Origin: Acutalibacter sp. 1XD8-33
GTDB lineage: Bacteria; Bacillota; Clostridia; Oscillospirales; Acutalibacteraceae
Assembly: GCF_003612555.1 (NCBI RefSeq)
Contig: NZ_RAZF01000009.1
Location: 1 to 64,000 of the forward strand
DNA: 64,000 nucleotides
Reading direction: 5' to 3'
Of the stretch, positions 29,111 through 46,518 are shown in pieces. The translations under genes were made by a program, and so were the position numbers. Position 1 is the first letter of the stretch. Every line of letters begins with the position of its first letter. The notes below the pieces were generated by a model. That model did no database searches, was not told where the DNA came from, and saw nothing but the letters and a program-made list of their open reading frames with translations.

Positions 29111-29992
29111 TTAGACCCGACTGGCCCATTCCCGGTAAAAACTCAGCTTTTCTATCGTAATCCGGGGCCGCCACCAAGCCCGCGCCTGTTGAAACTCCTT
29201 CTCATAGGGTGTGTACCACTGCCAAGGAATATCAAAGCCTCCGTCCTCCATTTGCAGCCTGTCCAGCACAGCCAGTTCCGCTCGAATTTGAGGCACCAGG
29301 CTCTCTGGGAGAAATTCTCCAGGGAAGGTAGATGGTGTTGGCACATACTCCACTCCATATTTGGAAACGTCTGTGCAGACGGCCTTCTGCACACATATCT
29401 GAATGGCTTGCCGGGCATGGTCAAAATCCACAATTTCCTCTACTCCTGATTGTTTCAGCAATCCGTAGGCCAGGATGAAGCATTTCAAAGTGTTATCATC
29501 CCTCTCCTTCTCCAACTCCTGAAACGCCTTTTGCACCTGCCCCCGCCAGGGTTCTCCCTCTCCCATGCACACAAGAAAAGCCGCCAAAGACACTCCTGGA
29601 TTCCAGGTGACCTCGTCATCCTCTTGTCTCTCCCACCAGATGGCATGCGGATAATCCTTATTGCTGTCAATGGAGCCAGGCCAAAGCAACTTCTCCGGGT
29701 CCACGGAGGATTTCAAATATTGCGCCATACCCCGAGCCATATCTTCGGCTTCCTTTAGAGCTCCGGCTTCAAATAGATGGAATAGCGCGTTGTTTGTGGT
29801 CATAGGGCTGGAATTGGGATTCCAGTTGTCAGGTTCTAGGGCGTGTCCAAAACCTCCATCTGGATTCTGGAAAGGCTTTAATGCCTGGATCACCGCATCT
29901 ACTGATCCATTTTGAAATTGGCGCTGAAACTTTGCCAGTTCCACAGGCCGGGCATTCTCCAGGATGAATTGTTCCGCTTTTTTCACATTCAT
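29111..29992 (-). CDS. Alpha/alpha-toroid (terpenoid cyclase/prenyltransferase-fold) protein, unknown function
   Basis: The 293-residue soluble protein has repeated signatures of the terpene-cyclase/prenyltransferase toroid: LKPFQNPDGGFGHALEPD early and LDRLQMEDGGFDIPWQW late, both 'QxxDGGF'-like. It lacks a DXDD or other cyclase catalytic motif that I can see, so a role in hydrocarbon cyclisation is unsupported. Homologous-looking proteins are usually annotated hypothetical. It stands alone behind its own promoter, with a ~130-nt leader. Confidence 0.75.
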   Translation of the reverse strand: MNVKKAEQFILENARPVELAKFQRQFQNGSVDAVIQALKPFQNPDGGFGHALEPDNWNPNSSPMTTNNALFHLFEAGALKEAEDMARGMAQYLKSSVDPEKLLWPGSIDSNKDYPHAIWWERQEDDEVTWNPGVSLAAFLVCMGEGEPWRGQVQKAFQELEKERDDNTLKCFILAYGLLKQSGVEEIVDFDHARQAIQICVQKAVCTDVSKYGVEYVPTPSTFPGEFLPESLVPQIRAELAVLDRLQMEDGGFDIPWQWYTPYEKEFQQARAWWRPRITIEKLSFYREWASRV

Positions 29993-30126
29993 AATACTTT
30001 TCGTCTCTCCGTTTTCTTTAATTCTTGCCCTAGAATCTTATGGACTTTTGTTCCAGAACCTGGGGAAGCATCTCTTCTACCAAAGCACCATTTCTGAAAC
30101 AATCCTTGATACGACACGTTTTCATT

Positions 30127-30155
30127 ATTATACCATACATTTTAGCTCGTTTCAA
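30127..30155 (-). promoter_or_regulatory. Sigma-A promoter of the toroid-fold gene
   Basis: Minus strand TTGAAA (30155-30150), 17-nt spacer, TATAAT (30132-30127). The transcript would have a leader of ~128 nt before the ATG at 29992, in which I see no clear riboswitch. Confidence 0.65.
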
Positions 30156-30203
30156 CATATTGCCCTTCATGGAATCAATCATTTTGTAGGTTTATCAAAT
30201 AAA

Positions 30204-30612
30204 TTAGACGATGAATTGGGAGGGAGAAAACCAGTTAAGAGGTCTCATCGGTAAGTTGTTGGCGTGGCAGTTGGTGAACTCAAAACCATTATCGATCTGG
30301 ACGCACTCTGCCTTTATTCCCCTGCGGAAATACCGCTTCACCAGGCGTTTGAGGAAGTCGGCGGAAGAGTAAGTGAACTGCTTAGGATAAGCCGCCAGGA
30401 AACGGAGCCTGGAAAATTCGTCAATGGCAGTATAGTATATTGAAGCAGGCATAGCTCTGGGTCGGCGATATAAGCTCTGGGGACCACTTTCACATCTACC
30501 TGGATACGCTCTCTGAGATAGATCATCTTCTCGTAGGGCTTCTGGCCAATTTGTATTGTACTCCTACACGCTTGGACACTCCCTGCTTTTTAGAATGCTT
30601 GACAATTCCCAT
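30204..30612 (-). pseudogene. Decayed transposase remnant (DDE integrase core, IS481/IS3 type)
   Basis: Two minus-strand frames give pieces of an rve-type transposase. One reads RIQVDVKVVPRAYIADPELC up to LLQYT; the other continues YTAIDEFSRLRFLAAYP and QIDNGFEFTN. The frame change falls on a tandem duplication of AGTAT (30429-30438), which adds 5 bp. The gene is also truncated: sequence after the second catalytic Asp (IDNG) is lost, and the N-terminal part is out of frame. No terminal inverted repeats are visible. The fragment sits directly upstream of the rpsB promoter. Confidence 0.75.
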
Positions 30613-32581: not shown

Positions 32582-32629
32582 AAACTGAACAGGCAAATTC
32601 CTGGGGCGGTCGTCCCAGGAAAGCAGGCG

Positions 32630-32668
32630 CCCTCTGAAAAGTGGTTTCTTTTCAGAGGGCTGCGTTTT
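32630..32668 (+). terminator. Terminator of rpsB-tsf
   Basis: CCCTCTGAAAAG (32630-32641) pairs with CTTTTCAGAGGG (32648-32659), followed by a GCGTTTTA tail. A second, smaller hairpin CCTGGG/CCCAGG lies just before it (32600-32620). Confidence 0.85.
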
Positions 32669-32700
32669 ATGGGGCTGAATTGTATTTTTTTGAGTAATAG

Positions 32701-32897
32701 AAGGCCTTCGCCGCAAAGGGCGCGGCTACGGCAAGGTCGTGGGACGCTGTCCCACACCCTGCCAGGGGCCTAACGCCCCTGGACCGCGCAATGTGTTTCA
32801 CTGGGGCGCACACCGCTAACCAGGGTAAAAGTTTGGTGGGGTTTGGGGCAACGCCCCAAGGTCTTGCCGAAGGGCCGTCCTTTGGCCCGAAGGCCTT
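32701..32897 (+). repeat. Hairpin-rich intergenic repeat, copy A
   Basis: A 197-bp element bounded by terminal inverted repeats AAGGCCTTCG (32701-32710) and CGAAGGCCTT (32888-32897). Inside are hairpins GTGGGAC/GTCCCAC, CCAGGGGC/GCCCCTGG and TTGGGGC/GCCCCAA, and the 19-bp core CTAACCAGGGTAAAAGTTT at 32816-32834, identical in copy C. No protein-like frame is present. It fills most of the 385-bp gap between tsf and the CPBP protease. Confidence 0.75.
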
Positions 32898-32966
32898 TCA
32901 CTACTTCAAAAAACACGCTTTAGACTATACATAAACAGACGTGGAATCGATTGGGAGGCAACGTTG

Positions 32967-33731
32967 ATGAACAGGCGGGAGCTCATTTCTATCGGGGTTT
33001 TGACTTTGCTGATTACGTGCATGGAGATCACGGGCATTCCAAGCGCGTTTTTTGTGGAGATCCATCTTGCGGACATAGAGCCTTTCTATTTCACGCTGAT
33101 GGTCAATTTCCTGATCATCGGACTCTTCGCCTTCCTGTATCTGAGAACGCTGTGTCCTCAGTGGAGGCTGGGGTTCACAAAAACCGGGCTGGCCGCAGGG
33201 CTGAAACAGTATGGAGCCATGGGAGCGGCGGCCGCGGTCGTGGGATTCGCGGCGTTTTATCTGGGCCTGTCGCCCTTTGACCGCCAGCCCTCCATCGGGA
33301 AAGTGCTGGTGGAAGGCATCCTGTACTATGTGGGCGTCGCGATCATCGAGGAGCTCTATGTGCGGGGCCTCTTGCTGAACCTGATGGAGAGGCTGTTTGC
33401 CAAGAGAAAAAACAGCGCTCTGCTTGCCGTGGCGCTGTCGTCGGTGGTCTTTGGGCTGGGGCATGTGTTCGGCGTGCTGGGCCAGCCGCCCCTGGTGATC
33501 GTGAGCAAAATCCTCTGGACCGTGGGCATGGGCCTGTTTTTCGGGATGGCGTATCGGAAAACCGGGAACCTGTGGGTGCCGGTTCTCCTGCATTTCTGGG
33601 TGGATGTTGGCGCTCTGCCATATTGCTTTTCCAGCGTCAGCGGATACGCCAACGTAACCCTATGGATTGTGGTACCCCTGTACGTCTTTTTAGGAATCTA
33701 CAGTGTTGTTGAGATGAAGCGGAGAGCGTGA
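32967..33731 (+). CDS. CPBP family intramembrane metalloprotease
   Basis: A 254-residue protein with about seven hydrophobic segments and the Abi/CPBP motifs: EELYVRG (Glu128-Glu129, Arg133), then FGLGHVFG and LLHFWVD supplying metal-binding His residues. These intramembrane glutamic-type peptidases relate to CAAX processing enzymes and bacteriocin self-immunity. No bacteriocin genes are visible nearby. ATG 32967 follows GGGAGG; a TTG one codon earlier is also possible. Confidence 0.87.
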   Translation: MNRRELISIGVLTLLITCMEITGIPSAFFVEIHLADIEPFYFTLMVNFLIIGLFAFLYLRTLCPQWRLGFTKTGLAAGLKQYGAMGAAAAVVGFAAFYLGLSPFDRQPSIGKVLVEGILYYVGVAIIEELYVRGLLLNLMERLFAKRKNSALLAVALSSVVFGLGHVFGVLGQPPLVIVSKILWTVGMGLFFGMAYRKTGNLWVPVLLHFWVDVGALPYCFSSVSGYANVTLWIVVPLYVFLGIYSVVEMKRRA

Positions 33732-33765
33732 ACGCCCCCGTTTCGATTCCCCAAAGGAGGCTGTG

Positions 33766-34606
33766 ATGGACACCTGTTACCCTTACTACGAACTGTATCT
33801 CCGGTGCTTTCCGGAATTTCCCGTGACCTACCGGACCTTTCTCCAGACCCTGCGGCCGGAGAGGGGGCAGATTTTCGCCCAGTGGGACCGGGGCGCTCTC
33901 GCTGGCTATGCCCTGGCCCACGGCAGCTCTATGGCCATGCTCTGCGTGGAGGAGTCCCACCGCCGGCAGGGGATGGGAAACTGGCTGATGGCTCAAGCGG
34001 AGGCAGCCGCCTGCAGGCAGAGTGAGCCCCGGATGTCTCTGGGACAGGGGGCCCACTACCTGTTCCAGGGCGTGCCCGAGGGTCCGGCTGTGGACTTTTT
34101 CCGGGAGCGGGGCTACCGCGCCCAGTGGTCCAGCGTGAACATGTCCCTCTCCCTGGGAGGGTTTTCCCTGGAAAAGCTGGACATTCCCCCCGGGCCGGAA
34201 GGGCTCTCCTATCGCTTCGCGGAGGCCGGCGATCGGGAAGCCCTGCTGGCTGCGGTCAAGGAGGCAAAATCCACTTGGACCAGCATTTTCGAGACCTGCC
34301 AGGACCCGGTGCTCCTGGCAGTCCTAGAGGGAGAGATCGCCGGGTTCCTGATTTTGGACCCGGAGGGAGGCCATTTCTCCGCCCCCCCCCCCCCGCCAGA
34401 GGGTGGGCAGCATCGGCTGCGTGGGGGTGGTCCCCGACCGGCGGGAGCAGGGCGTCGGCCTGCGGATGGTGGCTCACGGGGCGGACTGGCTCAAATCCCA
34501 GGGCTCCACCCAGGCGGAGCTGCGGTATACCTGGCTGGAGAGCTGGTACGGCAGGCTGGGCTTTTCCACCACGTGTCGCCAGTGGATGGCAGAAAAGAAT
34601 CTCTAA
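33766..34606 (+). pseudogene. Two-domain GNAT acetyltransferase interrupted at a C13 tract
   Basis: From ATG 33766 (AAAGGAGG 5 nt upstream) the frame encodes a first GNAT domain (VEESHRRQGMGNWLMAQAE) and the beginning of a second, up to a run of 13 C at 34382-34394. After it, the original frame degenerates into Gly/Arg/Pro-rich sequence. The next frame continues the domain: VGSIGCVGVVPDRREQGVGLRMVAHG, then ELRYTWLESWYGRLGFS, with its stop at 34604-34606. A one-base change in the C tract would restore a ~280-residue protein. It could be a real mutation, a phase-variable switch, or a sequencing error in the homopolymer. Confidence 0.75.
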
Positions 34607-34627
34607 GCGTCCATTTATAAACAGACT

Positions 34628-34882
34628 CTAAGCCTCCTCCCAATTCTCCTCCAGCCAAGCCAGTAGCCCCTCCATTCCCTCTTCGCTCAGGGGAAAATCC
34701 TTCTCCGCCCTCTCCCCTGCCCGCTCAAAGCATTTATCCTCCTTCCAGCACCAGGCCAACAGCAGCTGGTTTTCCTTATCAGGATTCACCCGATAGCGCA
34801 AAAGGTGGCTCCCCTCTGTCCGGCTCCCGGCAAAGTCATTTCCCTCTTGAAAAAAAATCAGCTTCCGCATGTCAAACATCAT
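34628..34882 (-). CDS. Small hypothetical protein
   Basis: The 84-residue product (MMFDMRKLIFFQEGNDF...) is acidic and soluble, ending in EGLLAWLEENWEEA. ATG 34882 has GGAAAGGA upstream; a longer version would begin in Gly/Ala-rich sequence without support. I do not recognise a family. It is divergent from the YaaH-like gene, with a short shared upstream region of 82 bp. Confidence 0.6.
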   Translation of the reverse strand: MMFDMRKLIFFQEGNDFAGSRTEGSHLLRYRVNPDKENQLLLAWCWKEDKCFERAGERAEKDFPLSEEGMEGLLAWLEENWEEA

Positions 34883-34964
34883 GATCTTCCTTTCCGCCGG
34901 CATACCTCCGGCCCCGCCCCGCATATTCTGGTACTACCAAATTACCGGAAATGAGGCGGTCTTT

Positions 34965-36242
34965 ATGCTTCTCTACACTGTTCAGTCTGGGGAATCCCTC
35001 TACCAAATCGCCCGCCGCTTTGGCGTTCCGCCTCAGCGAATCATCCTAGATAACGGCCTCGCCAATCCCCAAAATCTGCCTGTAGGCCTTCATCTTCTGC
35101 TGCTTACCCCCGCCGTCACCTATACTGTCCGGCAGGGAGATACTCTCTCTGCCATTGCGGAGCGATTCGGCGTGACTGTGGTGGTCCTGCTGCAAAACAA
35201 TCCACAACTCATTCTCTCCCCCACCCTTCAGGTAGGCCAGGAAATCGTTATCGGCTTTACCGCCGGAAAGCGCCGCCAGGTGGCCATCAACGGCTACGCC
35301 TACGATTTTATCCAGCCGGACACCCTCCGGCGGGCGCTGCCCTACCTCACCTATCTCACCATCTTCGGCTACGGCTTCACCCCCGAGGGGCGGCTGATCC
35401 CCCCGGCGGACGGCCCCCTTCTGGAACTGGCCCGGCAGTATCAGGCCGTGCCGGTGATGCTGCTCTCCTCCATCACCGGAAGCGGGAATTTCAGTCCCCA
35501 GCTGGCCAGCCAGCTCTTTCAAGATGCTGTCCTGCAAAACCGGGTACTGGCCAATCTGCTGGCTGTTATGGACCAGAAAGGTTATAGGGGCCTGGATATC
35601 GACTTTGAGTTCATTGTGGAGGAGGACGCGGAAGCCTACCTGCGCTTTCTGGAAAACGCCGCCTCCCAGCTGCACGCCCGAGGGTACTTCCTCCATGTGG
35701 ACCTAGCCCCCAAAACCTCCGGCGAACAGAAAGGTCTGCTCTACGAGGCCCACGACTATGAGTCCATCGGAGCCATCGCGGATTTCGTGCTGATGATGAC
35801 CTACGAGTGGGGCTACACCTACGGCCCGCCCATGGCGGTGGCCCCCCTCAATCAGGTGCGCCGGGTGGTGGAGTACGGCGCGTCTGTGGTTCCCCGGGAG
35901 AAGATCTTCATGGGCCTGCCCAACTACGGCTACGACTGGATCCTTCCCTTCCAGCGGGGGATCACCCGTGCCACAGCCATCGGCAACCAGTACGCGGTGG
36001 AGATCGCCCAGCGCCAGGGCGCGGCCATCCAGTTCGACACCGCCGCTCAGTCCCCCTGGTTCAGCTATAGCAGGGACGGCCTGGACCACGTGGTCTGGTT
36101 CGAGGACGTAGCCAGCGTAGAGCAGAAATACAACCTGATGGACGAATTCTCCCTTTTGGGCGGGGGCTACTGGAACGTGATGCGCCCCTTCCAGCAGAAC
36201 TGGTCCTTCCTGGCCGCCCGGTATAATATTGAGAAAAAGTAA
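34965..36242 (+). CDS. Spore cortex hydrolase, LysM-LysM-GH18 (YaaH/SleL type)
   Basis: The 425-residue protein has two N-terminal LysM domains (2-46 beginning LLYTVQSGESLYQIA, and 52-96 beginning TYTVRQGDTLSAIA), then a GH18 barrel with the catalytic motif GLDIDFE (Glu215 as acid). Length and order match YaaH/SleL, N-acetylglucosaminidases that degrade cortex muramic-lactam peptidoglycan during germination. There is no signal peptide, as usual for YaaH, which is delivered to the forming spore from the mother cell. ATG 34965 follows GAGGCGG; upstream in-frame codons do not look like LysM. Confidence 0.9.
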   Translation: MLLYTVQSGESLYQIARRFGVPPQRIILDNGLANPQNLPVGLHLLLLTPAVTYTVRQGDTLSAIAERFGVTVVVLLQNNPQLILSPTLQVGQEIVIGFTAGKRRQVAINGYAYDFIQPDTLRRALPYLTYLTIFGYGFTPEGRLIPPADGPLLELARQYQAVPVMLLSSITGSGNFSPQLASQLFQDAVLQNRVLANLLAVMDQKGYRGLDIDFEFIVEEDAEAYLRFLENAASQLHARGYFLHVDLAPKTSGEQKGLLYEAHDYESIGAIADFVLMMTYEWGYTYGPPMAVAPLNQVRRVVEYGASVVPREKIFMGLPNYGYDWILPFQRGITRATAIGNQYAVEIAQRQGAAIQFDTAAQSPWFSYSRDGLDHVVWFEDVASVEQKYNLMDEFSLLGGGYWNVMRPFQQNWSFLAARYNIEKK

Positions 36243-36258
36243 TTTGGGAGTAATATAG

Positions 36259-36554
36259 GGCCTCCGGCGGCGGGAGACTTGGCAAAGCCAAGTCTCCCGC
36301 CGCCGGAGGCAAGGCCGTGGGGCTCCGCGCCCCACACCCCCGCCAGCTTAAGACCAGCTGGACCGGCCAATGCACACGGCGCGAAGAATGGCAAGATGTT
36401 ATGGCTGGGTTTCGCCGTGTGTCATGAGTTTTGTTTCACAAAACTCTGCCAAGCTGATTACAAAGCGCACATAACTGACCAGGGAAAAAGTTTTGTCCAC
36501 TTTTTCAAAAGTGGCGGGGTTTTCAGGGGTGGAACCCCTGAACCGCCGGAGGCC
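36259..36554 (+). repeat. Hairpin-rich intergenic repeat, copy B
   Basis: A 296-bp element with terminal inverted repeats GGCCTCCGGCGG (36259-36270) and CCGCCGGAGGCC (36543-36554). It opens with a perfect hairpin of 24-bp arms (36260-36283 and 36287-36310, loop AAA). It shares CTGACCAGGGAAAAAGTTT (36475-36493), ACTTGGC/GCCAAGT and the GCCAGCT/AGCTGG hairpin with other copies. The first hairpin lies 17 bp after the YaaH stop and may double as its terminator. It occupies nearly the whole gap 36243-36566. Confidence 0.75.
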
Positions 36555-36566
36555 GTAAACATCGTC

Positions 36567-37304
36567 CTAAAAACACGCGTTTTGGACACTCCGGTACAGG
36601 TAGGCCCGGCCCTGATTCCCGATCCGCTCCACGGCCCCCAGCTCACGGGCCGCGCTCAGGGCCAGGGAGCCGTTCATGGGGGAGAAATGCCCGCAGGCCC
36701 GGAACTCCTTGGAGGTGAACGCCTCCGGTAGGTCCGGGGGCAGCAGACGGGGGAATTCCTCCGGGCCCCGGGCCCAGACCTCCTCCAGCAGGCGCACAGG
36801 CATCCGCTCCCACCGGGTGTAGCCCCGGCGGCCCCGGCCGTCCTTCAGGCGGTACTCCTCCACCTCCAGCAGCATGGCGCACAGGGTCAGCCCAGGCTCT
36901 TTCAGCAGGTCCCGGATGGAATAGAGCTCCGTGAGCATCTCCCAGGCCCCGCCGGTCTTGGGGCTTCTCCGCCGGCGGGACTGGCTTCCGTCCGGTCCCA
37001 CGGAGATCAGCCATTTCACCGCCGCCACCGGGTACACCAGGGCCACGGGGTAGTGGGGCAAAAAGAACTCCAGCTTCTCCCGCAGCCGGCCGAAGCCCGC
37101 TGTCTGGATCTCCGTGATCCCGGCCTCGTTGACGATGTCCGCCACGTACCGGCCCACCAGCACCTCCCGGCAGGCCTCCCGTGGCTCCAGATACCGCTTC
37201 AGCGCCGCATGGAGGGATTTCTCCCCCAAAGCGCCGATGCCCGCCGGGCGGGTCCCCTCGGACAGCACCTCCCGGCAGGCCTCCAGAAACCGGCTCTCAT
37301 CCAT
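36567..37304 (-). CDS. Hypothetical protein with PD-(D/E)XK-like nuclease pattern
   Basis: The 245-residue protein resembles a restriction-endonuclease-like core: GEKSLHAALKRYLEP (Glu28 in a helix), then VADI (Asp56) and ITEIQT (Glu65, Gln67), the order E-x(n)-D-x(n)-ExQ. The C-terminal ~70 residues (FTSKEFRACGHFS..., GAVERIGNQGRAYLY) look like a winged helix. I do not recognise a named family. The start ATG 37304 overlaps the upstream amidohydrolase by 8 bp, so it is probably translated with it. Function unknown; the nuclease idea is inference. Confidence 0.7.
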   Translation of the reverse strand: MDESRFLEACREVLSEGTRPAGIGALGEKSLHAALKRYLEPREACREVLVGRYVADIVNEAGITEIQTAGFGRLREKLEFFLPHYPVALVYPVAAVKWLISVGPDGSQSRRRRSPKTGGAWEMLTELYSIRDLLKEPGLTLCAMLLEVEEYRLKDGRGRRGYTRWERMPVRLLEEVWARGPEEFPRLLPPDLPEAFTSKEFRACGHFSPMNGSLALSAARELGAVERIGNQGRAYLYRSVQNACF

Positions 37305-38142
37305 GGCTTTCTTTTTGTGTGGAGACGCGGTATAGCCGGGCGAAATTCTCAAACAGGATCCCGCGGTTTTCGGCCTGTGTCAGGCCCAGGGCAAAGAGGG
37401 CCCGCAGCTCCGGCCCGGCGGGCCACATGGGGAAGTCCGTGCCGAACATCACCCGGTCCGCCCCGAACAGGGCGATGCTCTCCAGCGCCTCCTCCTCTGA
37501 GAGAAAGGGGAAGGAGCTGGAGGTGTCCACGTACACGCCGGAGCCCCGAAGGCACTCCCGGGCGGCCTTCCACTCCGTGTAGCCCCCCAGATGCGCCGCC
37601 ACACAGGTGAGGCCCGGCAGCTTCTGGAGCACCCGGGCCAGCTGTCGGGGGGAGGAGAAATTCTTCCGGCTGTCCCCGGTGTGGAAGAGAATGGGCAGGC
37701 CCCGGCACTCCGCCGCCCGGTAGAAGGGCAGCATCTTCGGGTCGTCGATGGCGAACTCCTGGAAGTCCGGGTGGAGCTTGATCCCCCGGAGGCCCTGGCG
37801 CTGGATGTCGTCCAGCTCCCCCTCGATGTCCTCCACGTCCGGATGCCACGCCCCAAGGCCCACAAACTGGGGGTACTCCCGGCAGGCGCTCTCGATGAAG
37901 CCGTTGATGGAGCGGACCTGCTCCACCTTTGTGGCCACGGAGCACACCAGGAACCGGTCCAGGCCCGCCTGGGCCCCGGCCTCCGCCAGAACCCCCGGCG
38001 TGCCCACATAGCGCATGGCGAGGTCGTAGAACCGCCCCACGGAGGCGGTGGCCTTTTCCGCGATCTTTTCCGGATAGATATGGGCGTGGGCGTCCGCCGC
38101 CAGATAGCTCGCCCCGTTATGAATCACTGGCAATTTCCTCAT
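37297..38142 (-). CDS. Amidohydrolase-family TIM barrel protein
   Basis: The 281-residue product has the metal-dependent hydrolase pattern: DAHAHIYP (His19, His21), RGIKLHPDF, LFHTGDS, CVAAHLGG and FGTDFPMW supply the expected His and Asp ligands. This matches the amidohydrolase-2 group, which includes decarboxylases and lactone hydrolases. GAGGAAAGGA precedes the ATG. It starts inside the end of queH (26-bp overlap) and overlaps the downstream gene, forming a three-gene unit. Substrate unknown. Confidence 0.85.
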   Translation of the reverse strand: MRKLPVIHNGASYLAADAHAHIYPEKIAEKATASVGRFYDLAMRYVGTPGVLAEAGAQAGLDRFLVCSVATKVEQVRSINGFIESACREYPQFVGLGAWHPDVEDIEGELDDIQRQGLRGIKLHPDFQEFAIDDPKMLPFYRAAECRGLPILFHTGDSRKNFSSPRQLARVLQKLPGLTCVAAHLGGYTEWKAARECLRGSGVYVDTSSSFPFLSEEEALESIALFGADRVMFGTDFPMWPAGPELRALFALGLTQAENRGILFENFARLYRVSTQKESHG

Positions 38143-38773
38143 TCCTTTCTTCCCGGCGCCGGTCCCGCTGGACCTTGGAGTAGACGCAGCCGCAGTAGTC
38201 CTGGCGGTACAGGCCGTACTGCCGGGACAGCAGGATGGAGCGCTTGTAGCCCTCCCGCTTCTTGAAGTCCGCGGGCAGGTGCCGGACCCCGAATTCCGCC
38301 GCCAGCTCCTCCCCGATCCGGTTCAGGGCCCCGGCGTTTTTCAGGGGGCTGATGCTCAGGGTAGTGGTGAAGTAGTCCATGCCGTGGTCCCGGGCGGCCA
38401 GGGCGGCCTCCCGCAGGCGCAGGCGGTAGCAGGCCATACACCGGGCCCCGCCCTCGGGCTCCGCCTCCAGGCCCTGGGCCATTTGGGCGAACTCCTCCCC
38501 CCGGTACTCGCAGGGCAGTAGCTCCACCGGCCGGGGCAGGGGCAGCTCCCGGAGAAGCCGCCGCAGCTCGTTAAGGCGCTTCTCGTACTCCTCCTGGGGG
38601 GCAATATTGGGGTTATAGTAGAGCAGGTAGACGCGGAAATGGGGGGCCAGGTATTCCAGCACGGCGCTGGAGCAGGGGGCGCAACAGGCGTGCAGGAGGA
38701 GCTTGGGGGCGGTATCCCCCAGCCCGGCGATGAGCCCCTCCAGCTCCCTGGAATAATTTCGTTTTTTCTCCAT
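38117..38773 (-). CDS. queH: Epoxyqueuosine reductase QueH
   Basis: The 218-residue product shows the QueH cysteine set: HACCAPCS (Cys30, Cys31), CMACYRLRL (Cys112, Cys115) and YCGCVYS (Cys194, Cys196), which hold a 4Fe-4S cluster and a second metal site. It performs the last step of queuosine synthesis in tRNA and replaces QueG in many anaerobes. ATG 38773 follows GAAGGAGG. Strong promoter upstream. No other queuosine genes are in the window. Confidence 0.92.
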   Translation of the reverse strand: MEKKRNYSRELEGLIAGLGDTAPKLLLHACCAPCSSAVLEYLAPHFRVYLLYYNPNIAPQEEYEKRLNELRRLLRELPLPRPVELLPCEYRGEEFAQMAQGLEAEPEGGARCMACYRLRLREAALAARDHGMDYFTTTLSISPLKNAGALNRIGEELAAEFGVRHLPADFKKREGYKRSILLSRQYGLYRQDYCGCVYSKVQRDRRREERNEEIASDS

Positions 38774-38800
38774 GGCGCGCCCTCCTTCTTTAATATGGGA

Positions 38801-38829
38801 ATTATAACACAAAGCCGGAAAAATTTCAA
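38801..38829 (-). promoter_or_regulatory. Sigma-A promoter of queH operon
   Basis: Minus strand TTGAAA (38829-38824), 17-nt spacer, TATAAT (38806-38801), ~30 nt upstream of queH. Confidence 0.7.
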
Positions 38830-38854
38830 CAGGGGTAGGGCCAAACACTCCCCT

Positions 38855-38883
38855 TGACTTCTCCCCGCAAACCGGGTATGATA
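38855..38883 (+). promoter_or_regulatory. Sigma-A promoter of divergent PAP2-family gene
   Basis: TTGACT (38855-38860), 17-nt spacer, TATGAT (38878-38883), ~80 nt upstream of the ATG at 38965. It is back-to-back with the queH promoter. Confidence 0.7.
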
Positions 38884-38964
38884 TTAAGAAAGGCGCTTCG
38901 AAACCGGTAAATTGAGCCAGTGGCGTTTGCCATAGAGTATCTCACCAGGAAAGGACTGGCCCGT

Positions 38965-39459
38965 ATGGACCTCTCGATTTTGCTCTCCAACCCCCTGATC
39001 AATATCAGCGTGATCTCCTGGGCCGCCGCCCAAGCTCTGAAAACCCTGGTGGACGCGGTAAAGCACAAGCAGTTCGACCGCCACCGGTTGGCCGGGGCCG
39101 GAGGAATGCCTAGCTCTCACTCGGCGGTGACCTGCTCCGTGCTGCTCACCTCCTACTATCTTTACGGCTTTAACTCTCCCATCTTTGCCCTCAGCTTTGT
39201 GTTGGCCCTCATCGTCATGTACGATGCCACAGGCGTGCGCTGGGCCGCCGGGCTTCATGCCCGGGCCATCAACCATATTGTGGAGTTTCTGGAACAGGAA
39301 GACGCCACGGAGGGCCGACAGGCTTTACGGGAGCTGATCCCCAAGCTGAACGAGTCCCTGGGCCATCGGGTACGGGAGGCCATCTGTGGAGCTGGACTGG
39401 GATTTCTCATCGCGGTCATCGCCCATATCATCCGCAGGGGCGGAATTTCCTGGTTTTAG
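38965..39459 (+). CDS. Divergent PAP2 family membrane protein (DUF212, YuiD-like)
   Basis: The 164-residue protein contains LAGAGGMPSSHSAV, the family's phosphatase-like SSH motif, and VMYDATGVRWAAGLHA, with three or four hydrophobic segments. It resembles B. subtilis YuiD. Activity is not established; PAP2 relatives dephosphorylate lipids such as undecaprenyl diphosphate. ATG 38965 follows AGGAAAGGA at a longish distance; an upstream in-frame start exists but begins outside family sequence. Confidence 0.85.
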   Translation: MDLSILLSNPLINISVISWAAAQALKTLVDAVKHKQFDRHRLAGAGGMPSSHSAVTCSVLLTSYYLYGFNSPIFALSFVLALIVMYDATGVRWAAGLHARAINHIVEFLEQEDATEGRQALRELIPKLNESLGHRVREAICGAGLGFLIAVIAHIIRRGGISWF

Positions 39460-39489
39460 ATTCTGGGGCTTCGGCCCCTTTTCTCATGC

Positions 39490-40014
39490 CTATTTTGTCT
39501 CTGCCTCTACCAGAATAAACAACTGCTGCTCTTCTCCCATCAGCCGCAGAGCCTCCAAGTCCTCCTCTTCCAGCACCGGATTCATCCTGACGGCAGAGTA
39601 GGCGGGAGGCGTTTCCCTTCCAGGCAAAAGAATGTCCTCCGTGCGGTTATTTTGGTAGCACAGGTACTCCCCCCGGCGAATCCAGCCGTCCGGGCTCTTT
39701 TCCCCTTGGACGCCTGCTTCCACGAAGTTCCCTGCCTCCAGATTTCCCGCCTCCAGCACGGGCTTTCCGCCCAGCTGTGCTGTACAGAGCCGGATCCGCA
39801 GGCTGCACCCTGCTTGTCCGCTGTTGCGGAAGGCCACGCCCCCTTGGGCCAGCTCCCCTGGCAGCAGCACCGGGTCCGCCTCTCCATCCTCCCCACTCAA
39901 GGAGATCACTTCCAGCTTTACCGGGGCTTCCTGGGGCTTGAGCAAAAAAACGGCTCCCCATACCGCAGCCAGCAGCATCAGTCCGGCTGCGGCCAACAGC
40001 CCCCCCCGCCTCAT
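39490..40014 (-). CDS. Membrane-anchored exported protein of unknown function
   Basis: The 174-residue product has one N-terminal hydrophobic segment (4-25) after MRRGG, so it is secreted or membrane-anchored. The rest is beta-rich with Glu/Gly-rich turns; LLPGELAQGGVAFRNSGQAGCSLRIRL resembles TasA/CalY-like or SipW-dependent exported proteins, but the match is loose. Its ATG overlaps the stop of the upstream exported protein (ATGA), so they are co-translated. Confidence 0.65.
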   Translation of the reverse strand: MRRGGLLAAAGLMLLAAVWGAVFLLKPQEAPVKLEVISLSGEDGEADPVLLPGELAQGGVAFRNSGQAGCSLRIRLCTAQLGGKPVLEAGNLEAGNFVEAGVQGEKSPDGWIRRGEYLCYQNNRTEDILLPGRETPPAYSAVRMNPVLEEEDLEALRLMGEEQQLFILVEAETK

Positions 40015-40736
40015 GGCTTTTCCCCCAGGCGGAAGCTCTCTCCAATAGCCCGGCCTGTCTGGTTCACGGTAAATTCCGCCATGGCTTCGGACAAATCCGG
40101 ATCCACGGTGTCATTCTCCCGGCACACGCCCAAGAGGCATTCCACCGCCTCCGGCTGAGCTCCCCCTTCTGGCACAGAAACCCTATACACGCCAAAAGGC
40201 AGGCCGGTAAATTCCGCCTCTAGCCGGGGCGAACCACCCTGGGGATCCGCCTCTGCCCAAGCCCGACGGAATAAGGTCAAATCCTGGCTCTCCAGCTGGA
40301 ACAGAACCGAATGCCCTGCCTGTACCGGAAATCCCACACCCCGCACCCGCACCGTGCCGCTGACCACCCGCACCCGGTAAGTAAGATTGGCCCAGCTGTC
40401 TTTGCCATCCTCTCGATGGAGCACTGCGGAAAGCTGATAATCCGTATCCTCCCGGGGCCGCTCTCTGCCTAGATCTTCCAGAGTCATACGTCCTCCCGGG
40501 CCCATCCACCAGCACTCCATCTCTCCTGTCTCTTCCGGAAATTCCTTTCGCAGGCGCTCTTCCAGTGTCTCGCCTTCTATCCGCAAAGGCGCGGCCTCTC
40601 CCAGAAACACTGTTTCCTCCCAAAGAGGCTCTTCCTCCCCAAAAGCCTCCAGCACCGGCCCACCTATACAGACTGCTGCCGCCAGTAGCAGGGCCCCGGC
40701 GGTTCTCTTCCATGTTTTGAAACGCTCCCAATTCAC
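40011..40736 (-). CDS. Secreted protein of unknown function, partner of the downstream exported protein
   Basis: The 241-residue product starts with a signal peptide (WKRTAGALLLAAAVCIGGPVLEAFG). The mature part looks like beta-sandwich domains: DYQLSAVLHREDGKDSWANLTYRVRV and LPFGVYRVSVPEGG, the latter like SpaA/prealbumin-type pilin domains. No sortase motif or transmembrane tail is seen. Coupled to the 39490-40014 gene by a 4-bp overlap. Function not assigned. Confidence 0.65.
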   Translation of the reverse strand: MNWERFKTWKRTAGALLLAAAVCIGGPVLEAFGEEEPLWEETVFLGEAAPLRIEGETLEERLRKEFPEETGEMECWWMGPGGRMTLEDLGRERPREDTDYQLSAVLHREDGKDSWANLTYRVRVVSGTVRVRGVGFPVQAGHSVLFQLESQDLTLFRRAWAEADPQGGSPRLEAEFTGLPFGVYRVSVPEGGAQPEAVECLLGVCRENDTVDPDLSEAMAEFTVNQTGRAIGESFRLGEKP

Positions 40737-41191
40737 GGCAATTCTCCTTTCACTTCTATTGATTTAGGCAGTATCTGCAGAGCTTCCTGTGGGAATTTTC
40801 CGGGCCATTTTACCGGCTCTCGGGTCCCAAAATCGCGGATGTTTTTCCACACTCCAAAGCCCTGTGTAAACACCGGCGCAGACGCCGCCTAATTGACTTT
40901 GGGTACAAGTTACCATGTTTGGGCCGGAAATTTTGTCACAGTCTGGAGGCGCTTGCAAGTTTCTTAAATTTGGGGTATAATGAGACACAGTACCCGCCTA
41001 CTCTTCCATCAAAGCCAGCGCCGCTGTGTCATTATATGGGATTTCCCAGGCAAAGGTGTCCGGCCCCATTTTCAGTGCGCTCAGGTGATAAATTTCATTG
41101 TAGCATATGGGATACCCTCTGATGGCGGAGACTGCTCCATATCATGAAAAATGTGTTCTGAAAGCCATAACCTAGGAAAGGCGGGACGACC
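40737..41191. other. 455-bp gap without a confident gene
   Basis: The only clear signal is a sigma-A promoter pointing right (40953-40981). On the minus strand, codons ending at ~41006 read FAWEIPYNDTAALALMEE before a TAG. They have protein-like composition but are preceded closely by a stop and lack a start, so they may be the tail of a lost gene. No RNA gene is recognised. Confidence 0.4.
40953..40981 (+). promoter_or_regulatory. Sigma-A promoter upstream of RluA-type gene
   Basis: TTGCAA (40953-40958), 17-nt spacer, TATAAT (40976-40981). The transcript would have a ~200-nt leader before the pseudouridine synthase ATG at 41192, and could also express something shorter. Confidence 0.6.
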
Positions 41192-42196
41192 ATGCCCCGG
41201 AAACTGTTAACGGTAGCCCCTAACGACGCGGGCCAGCGCCTGGACAAGTTCCTCACCAAAACTTATCCCAATCTGCCCCCTACCGTGCTCTACAAGTGCA
41301 TCCGCACCAAGGACGTGCGCCTAAACGGAGCCCGGTGTAAACCGGAAAGCCGCCTTGCCGTCGGGGACCAGCTCTCCCTCTTCTGGCAGGAGGATTTCTT
41401 CCAGCAGTCCCCCAAGGACTACGACTTCCTCAAGGCCCCAAAAAAGCTGGACATCGTCTACGAGGACAGCCAGATTCTGCTGTTGGACAAGCGGCCCGGC
41501 CTCATCGTTCACCCGGACGAGAACTATCACTTCGACTCCCTCATCGCCCGGATCCAGCGCTACCTCTACGAAAAGGGCGAGTACCGCCCCCAGGAGGAGA
41601 ACTCCTTCTCCCCGGCCCTGGTGAACCGCATTGACCGGAACACCGGAGGCATTGTCATGGCGGCGAAAACCGCCGCCGCCCTGCGGGTTCTCAACCAGAA
41701 GGTCAAGGACCGGGAACTGGACAAGCGCTACCTCTGCGTGGTCTGCGGCAGGATGCGGGAGGCGTCCGCCCTGCTCACCGGCTACCTTGTGAAAAACGAG
41801 GCCCAGAACCGGGTCTACGTGAGCAAAAAGCCCAGCCCGGGGGCCAAGACCATCCGCACCGGGTACCGGGTCCTGGAGGAACGGGGGGACTACTCCCTCC
41901 TGGAGGTGGAGCTCCTCACCGGGCGCACCCACCAGATCCGGGCCCATCTGGCGGCCATCGGCCACCCCCTGGCCGGAGACGGGAAATATGGCCGGAACGC
42001 CCTGAACAAGCCCTCCGGCTTCCCCTATCAGGCCCTGTACTCCTACAAGCTGCGGTTCGCCTTCACCACCCCGGCGGAGGAGCTGGACTACCTGAACGGT
42101 CAGGAATTCCAGGCGGAAAACGTCTGGTTTCTGGAGGAATTCCGCCGCTTTCCCAAAAATTTCCACGAGAGGAAGGATCCCCATGCTCCGCGCTGA
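41192..42196 (+). CDS. RluA-family pseudouridine synthase
   Basis: The 334-residue product has an N-terminal S4 RNA-binding domain (15 to ~65) and the RluA catalytic domain with HPDEN and the signature RIDRNTGG, whose Asp148 is the catalytic residue. GRTHQIRAHLAAIGHPLAGD is the conserved C-terminal motif. It isomerises uridines in 23S rRNA (RluC/RluD-like; exact site unknown). GGAAAGGCGGG lies upstream of the ATG. Its end overlaps the next acetyltransferase gene by 14 bp. Confidence 0.9.
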   Translation: MPRKLLTVAPNDAGQRLDKFLTKTYPNLPPTVLYKCIRTKDVRLNGARCKPESRLAVGDQLSLFWQEDFFQQSPKDYDFLKAPKKLDIVYEDSQILLLDKRPGLIVHPDENYHFDSLIARIQRYLYEKGEYRPQEENSFSPALVNRIDRNTGGIVMAAKTAAALRVLNQKVKDRELDKRYLCVVCGRMREASALLTGYLVKNEAQNRVYVSKKPSPGAKTIRTGYRVLEERGDYSLLEVELLTGRTHQIRAHLAAIGHPLAGDGKYGRNALNKPSGFPYQALYSYKLRFAFTTPAEELDYLNGQEFQAENVWFLEEFRRFPKNFHERKDPHAPR

Positions 42197-42638
42197 AATC
42201 ACCCCCTATCTCCCAGAGGAGACCCGCGCCCTGCGGCAGGCCGTCTTTATGGATGAGCAGGGCTTTTCCTATGAGTTCGACGAGACAGACCTGGCCGCCC
42301 TGCACATCACCCTCTATGAGGACGGCGATGCTGTGGCCTGTTGTCGGATCTTCCCGGAGGGGCCCCGGCGCTGGCATGTGGGCCGGGTGGCGGTCCGCCA
42401 GGACTGCCGGGGGCGGAACCTGGGGGCCCTGGTGATGGCGGAGGCGGAAAAAGCTGCCGCTATCCGGGGCGGGGAAACTATTGTCCTCTCTGCCCAGGTG
42501 CGGGCATCGGGCTTCTACCGGAAGCTGGGCTACGCCCAGGAGGGGGAAGAATACCTGGACGAGCACTGCCCCCACATCCACATGAAAAAAGAGATCAGGG
42601 CTGGTTTGAAAATAGAGGAAATAAAAACAAAGGAATGA
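42183..42638 (+). CDS. GNAT acetyltransferase (ElaA/YjcF-like)
   Basis: The 151-residue product matches the ElaA/YjcF group: LRQAVFMDEQGFSYEFDETD at the start, GRVAVRQDCRGRNLGALVM as the acetyl-CoA loop, ASGFYRKLGYAQEGEEYLDEHCPHIHM at the end. It overlaps the upstream pseudouridine synthase by 14 bp and its stop overlaps an ATG of the following glycosyltransferase gene, so the three are an operon. Substrate unknown. Confidence 0.88.
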   Translation: MLRAEITPYLPEETRALRQAVFMDEQGFSYEFDETDLAALHITLYEDGDAVACCRIFPEGPRRWHVGRVAVRQDCRGRNLGALVMAEAEKAAAIRGGETIVLSAQVRASGFYRKLGYAQEGEEYLDEHCPHIHMKKEIRAGLKIEEIKTKE

Positions 42639-42643
42639 ACTGT

Positions 42644-44872
42644 ATGCGCGTAATTCACCTGATCGGCGGCGGCGACACCGGCGGCGCGAAAACCCATGTG
42701 CTCCACCTGCTGCGGGAGCTGAACAATTTCATCGACGCCCAGCTGGTGTGCTTCCGCAAGGGGGAGTTCTCCGACGACGCGGCCAAGATGGGCGTGCCCA
42801 TCCACGTAATCGAGACCGGGGACCCCATCCGTGGGCTGCGGGAGCTGAAAAAGCTGGTAGCCGGGCAGAAGATCGACATCATCCATTGCCACGGGGCCCG
42901 GGGCAATCTCATGGGCAACCTGCTCAAGGGCACGGTGAATGCTCCGGTGGTCACCACCGTGCATAGCGACTACAGACTGGACTACCTGGGCAGGCCCGTA
43001 GCCCGGCTGAGCTATGGCACCACCAATCTTTGGGCCCTGCGGCGGATGAACTACTATATCGGCGTGTCGGACAACATTACCGACCTGCTTATCCAGCGAA
43101 ACTTCCCTGCCGACCGCATCGAGAATATCCGAAACGGCATCGACTTCTCCACCCCCATCCAGTGCATTCCCCGGGAGGAGTTCCTCCGGTCCATTGGCCT
43201 TGCCGTGGAGCCTGGAGACGTGGTAGCGGGCATTGTGGCCCGGCTCTCCCCGGTAAAAGACATCCCCACCCTGCTGCGGGCCATGCGGCTGGCCTGCGAT
43301 CAGCAGCCCAACCTGAAGCTGGCCATCGCCGGGGACGGGGAGGAAAAGGAAAATCTGGTGCAGCTGGCCGGGCAGCTGGGCCTTACAGATCGGGTGTGCT
43401 TCGCGGGCTGGGTCAAAGACGTAAACTCCTTCTTCAACGCCATCGACATCGCCCTGCTCACCTCCCTCTCCGAGGGCTTCCCCTACTCCCTGACCGAGGG
43501 GGCCCGGATGCACAAGGCCACCGTATCCACCGCCGTGGGAGGCATCCCCGCCCTCATCCAAGATGGGGAGACGGGCATCCTCTTCCAGCCCCGGGACCAC
43601 GAGGCTCTAGCCCACCGCCTGGTGGAGCTGGCCCGAGACGAGCCCCGCCGCCGCCTGCTGGGGGACAAACTCTATGAAAAGGCCCAGGCGGAGTACTCCA
43701 TTGAGAGCATGGTGCGCCGCCAGCTGGAGATCTACCAGCGCATTCTGGCGGAGGAGGCCCGCAAGGCCGCCCATACTGGCCGGGACGGGGTGGTGATCTG
43801 CGGGGCCTATGGCCATGGCAACGCCGGGGATGACGCCATTCTCAAGTCTATCATCCGTTCGGTGCGGGAAACCGACCGCTATGTGCCCCTGACGGTGCTT
43901 GCCAAGAACACCCAGAGCATCAAGCAGCGCTACCGGGTGAACTCCATCTATACTTTCAACCTGCCGAAAATCTTGGGGGCCATGGGGAAGTCCCGGCTCT
44001 ATATCAACGGCGGCGGCACCCTGATCCAGAACGCCACCAGCCACCGCAGCCTCTGGTATTATCTTTTGACCCTCTGGGCCGCCAAGCGCCTGGGCAACAA
44101 GGTGGACATGTACGGCTGCGGCATCGGCCCGGTACACGGCAAACGGAACCTGCGGCTGGTCCGCCGGGTGCTGAACAGCTCGGTGGACGTGATCACCCTT
44201 CGGGAGCCGGACTCCCTCCGGGAGCTGGACAGCTACGGGGGCACCCGGCCCCACCGGGTCCTCAGCAGTGATCCGGCGCTGATCCTCTCCCCCGCCTCGG
44301 AGGAAGAGTGCCAGCGGTTTTTCCGCTCCCAAAATCTGGACCCAGACGGGAAGTATATCTGTTTTTTGCTGCGGACCTGGCGGGGCTTCTCAGAAAAAGC
44401 TCCCATTCTGGCAAAATGCGCCCAGCGGGCTCGGATGGAGCTGGGCCTGGAGCCGGTGTTTCTCTCCATCAACGCCTTCCAGGACGAGGCTGCCGCCCAA
44501 ACAGTGCTGGAATATATGCAGACGCCCGGCATCCTCCTCTCCGGCACGCCCAGCCCCGAGCTGCTAATTTCCATTCTAGGGCACATGAGCGTGGTGGTTT
44601 CCATGCGCCTGCACGGGCTGATTTTCTCCTCCTTGAGCGGCGCGCCCCTGGTGGGCGTAAGCTATGATCCAAAGATTGGCTCTTACCTGCGGTATCTGGG
44701 CTATGGGAAATATCAAGATCTAGAAAACATGAAGGAAGATTGGCTGTGGAATGCCATCGTGGAAGCCTATGCCCAACTACCCCGCCGGGCGGAGCTGAAG
44801 GCCAAAACCCAGCGCCTCATCGCCGTGGAGCGGGAAAATATCGCCGCCGTCAAGGAACTACTGAAGCAATAG
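42644..44872 (+). CDS. csaB: Fusion of GT4 glycosyltransferase and CsaB polysaccharide pyruvyltransferase
   Basis: The 742-residue protein has two complete enzymes. Residues 1 to ~370 are a GT-B glycosyltransferase (MRVIHLIGGGDTGGAKTHVL, and LSEGFPYSLTEGARMHKATV as the nucleotide-sugar motif). From ~380 (VVICGAYGHGNAGDDAI) to the end is a CsaB-type pyruvyltransferase with YINGGGTLIQNATS and VVSMRLHGLIFSSL. CsaB adds ketal pyruvate to a secondary wall polymer so that SLH-domain proteins can bind. ATG 42644 gives the canonical start with AAAGGA 9 nt upstream; an ATG 3 codons earlier overlaps the previous stop and is also possible. Confidence 0.9.
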   Translation: MRVIHLIGGGDTGGAKTHVLHLLRELNNFIDAQLVCFRKGEFSDDAAKMGVPIHVIETGDPIRGLRELKKLVAGQKIDIIHCHGARGNLMGNLLKGTVNAPVVTTVHSDYRLDYLGRPVARLSYGTTNLWALRRMNYYIGVSDNITDLLIQRNFPADRIENIRNGIDFSTPIQCIPREEFLRSIGLAVEPGDVVAGIVARLSPVKDIPTLLRAMRLACDQQPNLKLAIAGDGEEKENLVQLAGQLGLTDRVCFAGWVKDVNSFFNAIDIALLTSLSEGFPYSLTEGARMHKATVSTAVGGIPALIQDGETGILFQPRDHEALAHRLVELARDEPRRRLLGDKLYEKAQAEYSIESMVRRQLEIYQRILAEEARKAAHTGRDGVVICGAYGHGNAGDDAILKSIIRSVRETDRYVPLTVLAKNTQSIKQRYRVNSIYTFNLPKILGAMGKSRLYINGGGTLIQNATSHRSLWYYLLTLWAAKRLGNKVDMYGCGIGPVHGKRNLRLVRRVLNSSVDVITLREPDSLRELDSYGGTRPHRVLSSDPALILSPASEEECQRFFRSQNLDPDGKYICFLLRTWRGFSEKAPILAKCAQRARMELGLEPVFLSINAFQDEAAAQTVLEYMQTPGILLSGTPSPELLISILGHMSVVVSMRLHGLIFSSLSGAPLVGVSYDPKIGSYLRYLGYGKYQDLENMKEDWLWNAIVEAYAQLPRRAELKAKTQRLIAVERENIAAVKELLKQ

Positions 44873-44894
44873 ATCTCTTGCGGAAAATAGTTAT

Positions 44895-45182
44895 GTGAGT
44901 ATTCGTGGGCCTTCGGGGGTAATGAAACGGTCTCGCCCGCCGGTTCGGTCGGTTCGTGGCTTAGTCTGCAATACTTGGCTTTGCCAAGTATCCGGCAGAA
45001 CGCTCACCTCCTACGTACGGCAAGGTCGTGGAGCGCTGCTCCACACCACGCCAGGGGTTACGCTACCCCTGGACCTAGCAATGTGTCTAGCTTTATCGCA
45101 TACAACTAACCAGGGTAAAAGTTTCGTAGACTTCGCGCAGCGAACGTCTTACTTTTCTCAAAGGAGGCCCACGAATACTCAC
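44895..45182 (+). repeat. Hairpin-rich intergenic repeat, copy C
   Basis: A 288-bp element flanked by perfect 18-bp terminal inverted repeats: GTGAGTATTCGTGGGCCT at 44895-44912 and its complement at 45165-45182. Inside lie ATACTTGGC/GCCAAGTAT (44971-44991), a GTGGAGC/GCTCCAC hairpin, CCAGGGGT/ACCCCTGG, and CTAACCAGGGTAAAAGTTT (45106-45124). No coding potential. It fills most of the gap between csaB and moxR (44873-45231). Confidence 0.8.
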
Positions 45183-45231
45183 GCATTTTTCCAAGAACTG
45201 CATTTTTTAATAATCACAGGAGGATAACCAC

Positions 45232-46167
45232 ATGGAAACTGTTCTGCAGGCTATAAAAGTCAACATCGCCAAGGTCCTGGTGGGCCAGGAGAGGGTGGCG
45301 GATCTGATGCTCGCCGCCCTTCTGGCCGGAGGCCATGTGCTGGTGGAGGACGTGCCCGGCATGGGGAAAACTGTCATGGCCCGAGCCCTGGCAAAATCTG
45401 TGGGTGCTGACTTCGGCCGGGTGCAGTTCACCCCGGACCTGCTGCCCTCCGACGTGACCGGGCTGAACTTCTTCGACCAGCAGGAGGGGGCCTTCGTGTT
45501 CAGCCCGGGGCCGGTGTTCTGCAACATCCTCCTAGCGGACGAGATCAACCGGGCCACCCCCCGGACCCAGTCCAGCCTGCTAGAGTGTATGGCTGAGGGG
45601 CAGGTCACAGTGGACGGCGTCACCCGCCGCCTGCCGCCTCCCTTCTTCGTCATCGCCACCCAGAACCCGGTGGAAACCCTGGGTACCTATCCTCTGCCCG
45701 AGGCCCAGCTGGACCGCTTCCTCATGCGGATCTCCATGGCGCCCCCCACCCAGGACCAGGAGGTGGCCATCCTGGAACGCTTCCGGGACGCCGAGCCCCT
45801 GGAGGAGCTGGAGCCCGTGTGCACTCAGGAGGACATCACGGCCTTGCAGAAAAAATCCCGGGAAATCTTTGTCCACAAGATCCTTTTGGGATACATAGCC
45901 GCCCTGGCCCAGGCCTCCCGGGGACGCGGCGGTCTGGAACTGGGGGTAAGTCCCCGGGGCAGCTTGGCGCTGCTGCGGTCCTGCCAGGCCTTTGCCCTGG
46001 TTCAGGGCCGGGACTTCGTCACCCCTGAAGATGTCAAGGCCGTGGCGGAGCCTGTGATCGCCCACAGGCTTTCCGTCAGCGGGGCTATGGGTTCTCAGAG
46101 CCAGAAGCAGGCAGCTCTGGAGCTGTTGAATTCTGTGCCTGTGCCCACAGAGAACTGGGAAAAATAG
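45232..46167 (+). CDS. MoxR-family AAA+ ATPase
   Basis: The 311-residue product is a MoxR ATPase: Walker A VPGMGKT (41-47), Walker B LLADEINRATPRTQ, sensor-1 ATQNPVE followed by GTYPLPEAQLDRF, and the C-terminal lid. MoxR proteins act as chaperones, often for an associated DUF58/von Willebrand protein. AGGAGG precedes the ATG. The DUF58 partner follows, but after an inserted 351-bp gap carrying a repeat element, so coupling may be weakened. Confidence 0.93.
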   Translation: METVLQAIKVNIAKVLVGQERVADLMLAALLAGGHVLVEDVPGMGKTVMARALAKSVGADFGRVQFTPDLLPSDVTGLNFFDQQEGAFVFSPGPVFCNILLADEINRATPRTQSSLLECMAEGQVTVDGVTRRLPPPFFVIATQNPVETLGTYPLPEAQLDRFLMRISMAPPTQDQEVAILERFRDAEPLEELEPVCTQEDITALQKKSREIFVHKILLGYIAALAQASRGRGGLELGVSPRGSLALLRSCQAFALVQGRDFVTPEDVKAVAEPVIAHRLSVSGAMGSQSQKQAALELLNSVPVPTENWEK

Positions 46168-46253
46168 CCAGGGCCTCTCCACGCAAGGGAGCCCAGCTGC
46201 TGGAGGCGGCTGCGGGCGCCCCGCATTGCGTCCAAACCTATAGATTTTGAGAG

Positions 46254-46480
46254 TATGTTTTGGCCTCTGGCAGCTGAGGGTTTCACCCTCAGACCCCTGA
46301 CCAGCTGTAAACTTGGCGTTGCCAAGTTTCGGCCAGCTAGACCGGCCAAAGCCGTCCAGGGTAAAAATTTCGTCCACCTTTTTAAAGGGGGGGGGGACAA
46401 TCGCCAGTGGCGATTTCCCGTCGCTGACCGAGCCGGCAGGCGAGACTCGAAGCCCCTCCCTGCCGTAGCCACACAGTATT
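46254..46480 (+). repeat. Hairpin-rich intergenic repeat, copy D (diverged)
   Basis: Boundaries are approximate. It shares CTGAGGGT/ACCCTCAG (46274-46292), AAACTTGGC/GCCAAGTTT (46309-46329), the GCCAGCTAGACCGGCCAA block seen in copy B, and CCAGGGTAAAAATTTCGTCC (46356-46375). The left end resembles the GGCCTCTGG terminus; the right terminal repeat is not recognisable. A run of ten G (46387-46396) lies near the end. It sits between moxR and DUF58 (46168-46518); the first ~85 bp of that gap shows only a GC-rich palindromic stretch. Confidence 0.6.
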
Positions 46481-46518
46481 ACTCTTAAAAATACATTTTT
46501 TGAAAGCGAGGGCATTCA

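Follow-up and report, generated by a model that had tools for sequence, protein, structure and literature searches.

In the 64,000-nucleotide stretch of the Acutalibacter sp. 1XD8-33 genome analyzed here (contig NZ_RAZF01000009.1, positions 1 to 64,000; hereinafter, the window), four intergenic repeats, denoted A (32701-32897), B (36259-36593), C (44895-45182) and D (46239-46495), all on the plus strand, belong to a high-copy repeat family. We consider it highly probable that this is a family of non-autonomous DNA elements of the miniature inverted-repeat transposable element (MITE) type, with a modular interior of covarying hairpins and a structure that acts as DNA. The family displays two types of ends, 8-9-bp target duplications (for type I), near-identical copies at scattered sites, and an interior that is a mosaic with covarying stems.

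The initial annotation had described A-D as a family of non-coding repeats in the gaps between genes, and this description holds. According to the open reading frame (ORF) calls, all four are located between called genes, in the gaps 32582-32963 (A), 36243-36566 (B), 44873-45231 (C) and 46168-46518 (D), and are crossed by chance ORFs of 104-210 aa. All are strongly folded (z-scores relative to dinucleotide shuffles of -6.3, -8.2, -6.9 and -5.0 for A, B, C and D, respectively), and the core ACCAGGGTAAAAGTTT has four matches in the window at up to three mismatches, compared with 0.36 expected and with none of 100 shuffles reaching four. A search for direct repeats links the copies further, with repeat D3 present in four copies, D1 and D7 in A and C, D9 and D13 in B and D, and the D5 hairpin common to B, C and D; the parts follow one common order. 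The core also recurs across the genome: in the 3.6-Mb genome, ACCAGGGNAAAARTTT has 206 matches with at most one mismatch (95 exact; the reversed pattern yields 1 and 0), a number that does not equal the count of elements because a single element can contain two cores. The common order and this recurrence speak against the alternative raised in the initial annotation, namely copies that align only in short GC hairpins or are confined to this stretch.

The GGCCT-containing inverted repeats previously taken as the termini of A, B and C are present as quoted, spanning about 10 bp in A, 12 bp in B (GGCCTCCGGCGG/CCGCCGGAGGCC) and 18 bp in C (44895-44912/45165-45182). They are internal repeats, and the elements reach further outwards; B, for example, continues to the right as far as CGGAGTGTCC. 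The outer ends fall into two types. Type I ends (GGGAGTGTCCAAA/TTTGGACACTCCC) are represented by 24 matches to GGGAGTGTCCAAA at up to one mismatch in the 1XD8-33 genome, some of them outside elements (reversed control, 0), and by 86 matches in 11 of the 29 genomes of the genus (reversed control, 1). When left ends with at most one mismatch and right ends with at most three were paired over distances of up to 700 bp in two sets of loci, 67 from the genus and 94 from 1XD8-33, 49 distinct end pairs were obtained, 38 of which enclose an arm, i.e., the two-hairpin unit described below (7 in 1XD8-33 and the others in congeners). Among these 38 paired elements, 12 are flanked by perfect 9-bp target duplications, 8 by perfect 8-bp duplications (that is, 20 perfect cases at 8 or 9 bp) and 7 by duplications with one mismatch. 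With exchanged flanks and the same slack of one base on each side, the corresponding frequencies are 0.11%, 0 and 0.65%. In 1XD8-33, perfect duplications are ATCCCCAAA (L233), GGTGAACAG (L241) and CTCTGCCA (L230), one mismatch is found in L235 and L239, and L231 and L236 show no duplication. Type I elements combine terminal inverted repeats (TIRs), target duplication and the lack of coding capacity, the last judged from the position of A-D between called genes.

Type II ends (TATACTTT...AAAGTATA) have 24 matches to the end pattern and none in the control. Both ends were seen 242-311 bp apart in L175, L176, L180, L181, L186 and L190; in L193 the distance is 514 bp, and L183 is a 92-bp form. Two further loci, L197 and L198, were dropped as two-ended elements, their second ends being poor and extending into coding sequence. 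The type II copies carry the same arms as type I elements, so that a single kind of interior occurs with either type of end.

The MITE-like mobility proposed for the repeats is borne out by the target duplications, and the case for mobility is strong. Near-identical copies occupy unrelated sites (L002 and L049, 309/328; L027 and L052, 211/220). In other pairs (L027/L035 and L009/L038), one part is alike and the remainder different, a sequence pattern that points to exchange of parts between copies. The corresponding sites in relatives were inspected by eye. Four loci share the upstream gene of C (L076, L077, L079 and L080), and in each of them the gap is short and lacks the element; at the site of D, the next gene directly follows MoxR in all 11 loci printed. 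The MoxR protein of 1XD8-33 has its best relatives, at up to 86% identity, in an Oscillospiraceae isolate and in Acutalibacter records.

The interior of the elements is a mosaic of reusable hairpin modules. The main unit, the two-hairpin arm, is organized as AAAAGTTTCG-hairpin-GGGGTT-hairpin (hairpins hpY and hpX), and the covariation of its pairs, proposed from the window alone, is reproduced in aligned arms. In a sequence-based alignment of 21 arms of similar length (20 out of 49 detected, and one more), a choice of ours that favors intact arms, hpY and hpX together include 57 two-sided cells, no one-sided and 7 unpaired ones (97.8% paired), compared with 16.8 two-sided cells in shuffles and at most 10 when the partners are slid. 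Two model-based alignments, both of which lean towards the model, yield 98 two-sided, 3 one-sided and 12 unpaired cells for the two hairpins in the 40 distinct arms among 42 from 1XD8-33, and agreement with the 21-arm covariation for 28 arms of genome G026. In a less selected check, copies were collected by the core and then narrowed by the loop rather than by the stem. Of the 111 copies of 1XD8-33 collected by the core, 54 carry the common hpY loop; the 5-bp stem is perfect in 49 of these, which represent six different stem sequences. The remaining 57 copies have other hairpins or none of the hpY geometry. In G026, the stem is perfect in 17 of 24 copies. Across whole elements (98 copies), 198 of the 232 distinct hairpins are perfect.

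Several observations weigh against the interpretation as MITE-type elements with covarying stems, beginning with our choice of rows for the 21-arm alignment, in which the number of further pair types does not exceed that of shuffles (it is reached by 457 of the 500). In G026, 7 of the 24 stems are imperfect, and most of these look to us like register shifts. Between closely similar copies (146 alignments, which share copies), where unpaired positions differ at 8.2% (847/10372), the stems show 121 one-sided changes as against 54 two-sided ones, of which 52 preserve pairing, and decay is therefore visible; the one-sided changes occur at the tips and are rare in the deep variation. Type I ends were sighted without a partner 41 times, counting repeated sightings of one place, and 11 of the 38 paired elements lack a target duplication. 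The type II ends are consistent with the TA duplication of IS630/mariner-type MITEs but do not prove it. Finally, no intact transposase flanked by GGGAGTGTCC ends came to light, and the one intact IS200-type match and the one IS630-type match in the 1XD8-33 genome have other ends as far as these were read.

The initial annotation had remarked that no transposase is visible, and no partner was established among the following candidates. The IS630-type match (L174) has no ends visibly similar to type II (by eye). Of three Y1 matches in 1XD8-33, the intact one belongs to the IS200 type, scoring 144.9 bits where the cut-off is 55; with the profile of REP-associated tyrosine transposases (RAYTs) it scores 39.1, below the cut-off of 80. 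The IS200-type element is intact at L154:1933-2415 and partial in L155 and L156, with flanks unlike the repeats. IS256 was rejected as a partner: there is no match in 1XD8-33, matches are found in 5 of the 28 genomes searched (4 over the cut-off), and the four loci checked (L265-L268) contain neither GAGTGTCC nor GGACACTC. Two elements with GGGAGTGTCC ends in G018 contain decayed coding sequence with no Pfam or NCBIfam match; to us these relics look like the C-terminus of IS1-family transposases, a resemblance that no tool result supports. An IS481-like relic in the window is another candidate partner: eight copies in G006 begin with TGTAGGAGTAC and have flanks that differ from GGGAGTGTCC, and L253, L254 and L257 have GGGAGTGTCC at this position. 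The protein of L255 has IS481 as its best profile, below the cut-off (168.9 vs 224). In the window, a decayed transposase remnant that by eye is like this protein is located at 29964-30583 on the minus strand; its end reads GGGAGTGTCCAAGCG and then TGTAGGAGTACAATACAAATT, and the same type of junction is present in L253 and L254.

We propose that an insertion sequence sharing these ends would supply the transposase that moves the elements in trans, and that recombination would exchange whole hairpins between copies. Copies with broken hairpins would cease to spread, or their stems would be corrected or exchanged whole, and perfect stems would then persist whatever their sequence. The structure would work as DNA, in the form of cruciforms or single-strand hairpins, and not as a fixed RNA.

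Covariation could also arise without selection if template switching during replication copied one strand of a hairpin stem from the other, a mechanism outlined in PMC8794818, and we regard this as a tentative explanation with a limited but real chance of being correct. Changes from C-G to A-T cannot proceed via a G-U pair, and an intermediate mismatch is found in 1 of 54 stems; furthermore, the 54 two-sided changes in 2272 pairs compare with about 6 expected under independence, by our own estimate from alignments that share copies. The loop triplet of hpX, however, was never found in the inverted, pyrimidine-rich form wherever it is readable (33 of the 42 arms of 1XD8-33 and 16 of the 28 arms of G026), and exchange of whole hairpins between copies accounts for the same pattern.

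Outside 1XD8-33, the exact core is nearly absent: among 59 other genomes, it was found only in G024 (once) and G026 (twice). The arm model R1, with up to 80 candidates scored per genome, matches 20 of 60 genomes, namely, 1XD8-33 and 19 of its 28 congeners, with no matches in the 31 others. In a wider sample of the family (200 genomes, 135 genera), R1 has matches in 26 genomes from 22 genera, with the own genus counted; outside the genus, the scores are weaker and several genomes have a single match. The exact unit CCTTTGAAAAGGNNGNCGAAACTTTT occurs 106 times in 1XD8-33 (control, 0) and is present in 6 genomes among 394 sampled from the order, with 1XD8-33 counted, one of which represents another family. 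It is also found in four stretches of three IMG/VR contigs (L360:97-122; L358:2782-2807; L361:121-146 and 2805-2830). On L360, the unit sits in a cluster of phage tail genes that includes one for a tape-measure protein (phrog_1535, E = 1.9e-95), and on L358, only one of the five proteins tested has a match, to lysis and unknown families; phages may serve as a vehicle for the two-hairpin unit. In the congeners G018 and G010 (L226 and L227), an arm is flanked, by eye, by the same pair of genes, which is suggestive of an old insertion common to both. It is conceivable, albeit unlikely, that the AAAAGTTTCG-hairpin-GGGGTT-hairpin unit is a mobile entity read by its shape, in which the single strands would serve as fixed guides and the stems could take on any sequence that still pairs. 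Such a unit would travel by a hairpin-based route between genera, families and phages, and two or more unrelated types of MITE would have captured it.

The strong covariation, together with the presence of the unit in further genera and within a cluster of phage tail genes, would also be compatible with arms that are conserved structured RNAs or bidirectional terminators, copies of which are kept for useful transcripts. We consider this most improbable. Read in the orientation of the core, the stems contain 8 G-T, 7 A-C and 20 other mismatches in 2071 pairs and thus no excess of G-U pairs; this test shows no more than the lack of an excess because the numbers are small and the contrast with terminators is weak (22 G-T and 15 A-C in 1159 pairs of 99 hairpins from related loci, 53 of them perfect; the 8 terminator hairpins in the own loci are too few). 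The predominance of two-sided cells over one-sided ones in the 40 distinct arms likewise argues against a fixed RNA. There is no bias towards the strand of the genes either: a position between called coding stretches could be assigned to 75 of the 101 copies (59 in tandem, 11 in divergent and 5 in convergent gaps), and in the tandem gaps the core runs with the genes in 28 cases and against them in 31. Rfam models at gathering scores yield no match in the window or in eight loci, and the gaps in relatives lack the element. Hence, of the selection for RNA or DNA structure suggested in the initial annotation, the constraint on structure stands, a fixed RNA role is not supported, and the evidence points to DNA.

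An origin of the repetitive extragenic palindrome (REP) or REPIN type, with hairpin units moved as single strands by a RAYT protein and inverted doublets as the moving unit, is hardly probable in view of the TIRs with 8-9-bp target duplications of type I elements, which are not generally expected of this class. Inverted doublets of units do occur in a number of copies, and CGTC, the tag of the CGTC REPs according to PMC3733652, precedes a hairpin in 39 of 111 copies. The tag is inconstant, with 8 further copies showing TGTC (47 of 111 in total) and no CCTC among those listed, and no RAYT over the cut-off is encoded in 1XD8-33, where the two Y1 matches other than the intact IS200-type one are broken and unclassified. 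BIMEs and REPINs (PMC3116915) share with the present family the mosaic of palindromic units, inverted doublets and high copy number between genes, but the present unit is longer, with two hairpins, and comes with TIRs, target duplications and no RAYT over the cut-off. The CGTC-tagged REPs (PMC3733652) are similar in the CGTC or TGTC that precedes the hairpin in some copies and in that a dedicated transposase is not known; they differ in that the tag of the present family is inconstant and its unit comprises two hairpins together with the conserved single strands AAAAGTTT and GGGGTT.

Within the window, the four copies are made up as follows. In A, GGCCTTC inner repeats, an arm, the core (32819-32834) and hairpins are recognizable, and the outer ends are decayed on both sides (by eye). 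B contains a hairpin with a 24-bp stem (36260-36310), the core (36478-36493) and a two-hairpin arm unit (36478-36554, plus strand) with the order core-hpY-GGGGTT-hpX-CCGCCGGAGGCC, which scores 96.6 bits with R1, B itself being among the rows used to build the model. This copy retains a type I right end at 36581-36593 on the minus strand (CGGAGTGTCC, listed also as CGGAGTGTCCAAA); the left outer end was not seen, and the element begins within 20 bp of the stop codon of a LysM/GH18 gene. C includes the core at 45109-45124, with an outer end type that is not clear, and a second repeated module (44929-45008, plus strand; borders by eye) of the form GGTCTC...TTCGGTCGG...CGCTCACC with an ACTTGGC/GCCAAGT hairpin at 44973-44989. 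D has decayed ends TATAGATTTTGAGAGTATGTTTTGGCC ... GGCCACACAGTATTACTCTTAAAAATA (at about 46239 and 46495, by eye), assigned to type II by comparison with matches to the type II end pattern, a left arm at 46262-46317 on the minus strand, the core at 46355-46370, and the second module at 46393-46449 on the minus strand (borders by eye). The notion that the second module inserts into hairpin loops as a rule was rejected as weak (5 of 19 vs 9% in shuffles). The genes beside A-D were identified, with one exception: the right neighbor of B is without a Pfam match. Elsewhere in the window, a run of about 13 C (about 34382-34394) within a GNAT-type acetyltransferase gene (33763-34620) is a possible slippage tract.

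Like bacterial MITEs, the elements are short, non-coding, present in high copy number and mostly intergenic, with TIRs and 8-9-bp target duplications; unlike them, they form a mosaic of exchangeable covarying hairpins in which one interior is joined to two unrelated end types. BOX and Correia elements are likewise intergenic repeats that are modular or form hairpins. Literature searches by sequence and by phrase revealed no account of the present family among the titles and abstract beginnings of the matches listed. Given that a single genome carries many copies of the same hairpin positions, recent ones beside old ones, it becomes testable whether perfect covarying stems result from selection or from hairpin exchange or template switching. 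Covariation of the kind taken as proof of RNA function is encountered here in repeats that resemble mobile DNA, which calls for caution in RNA discovery. For the host, the family may shape operons, as C and D are located where the relatives read have closely packed genes.

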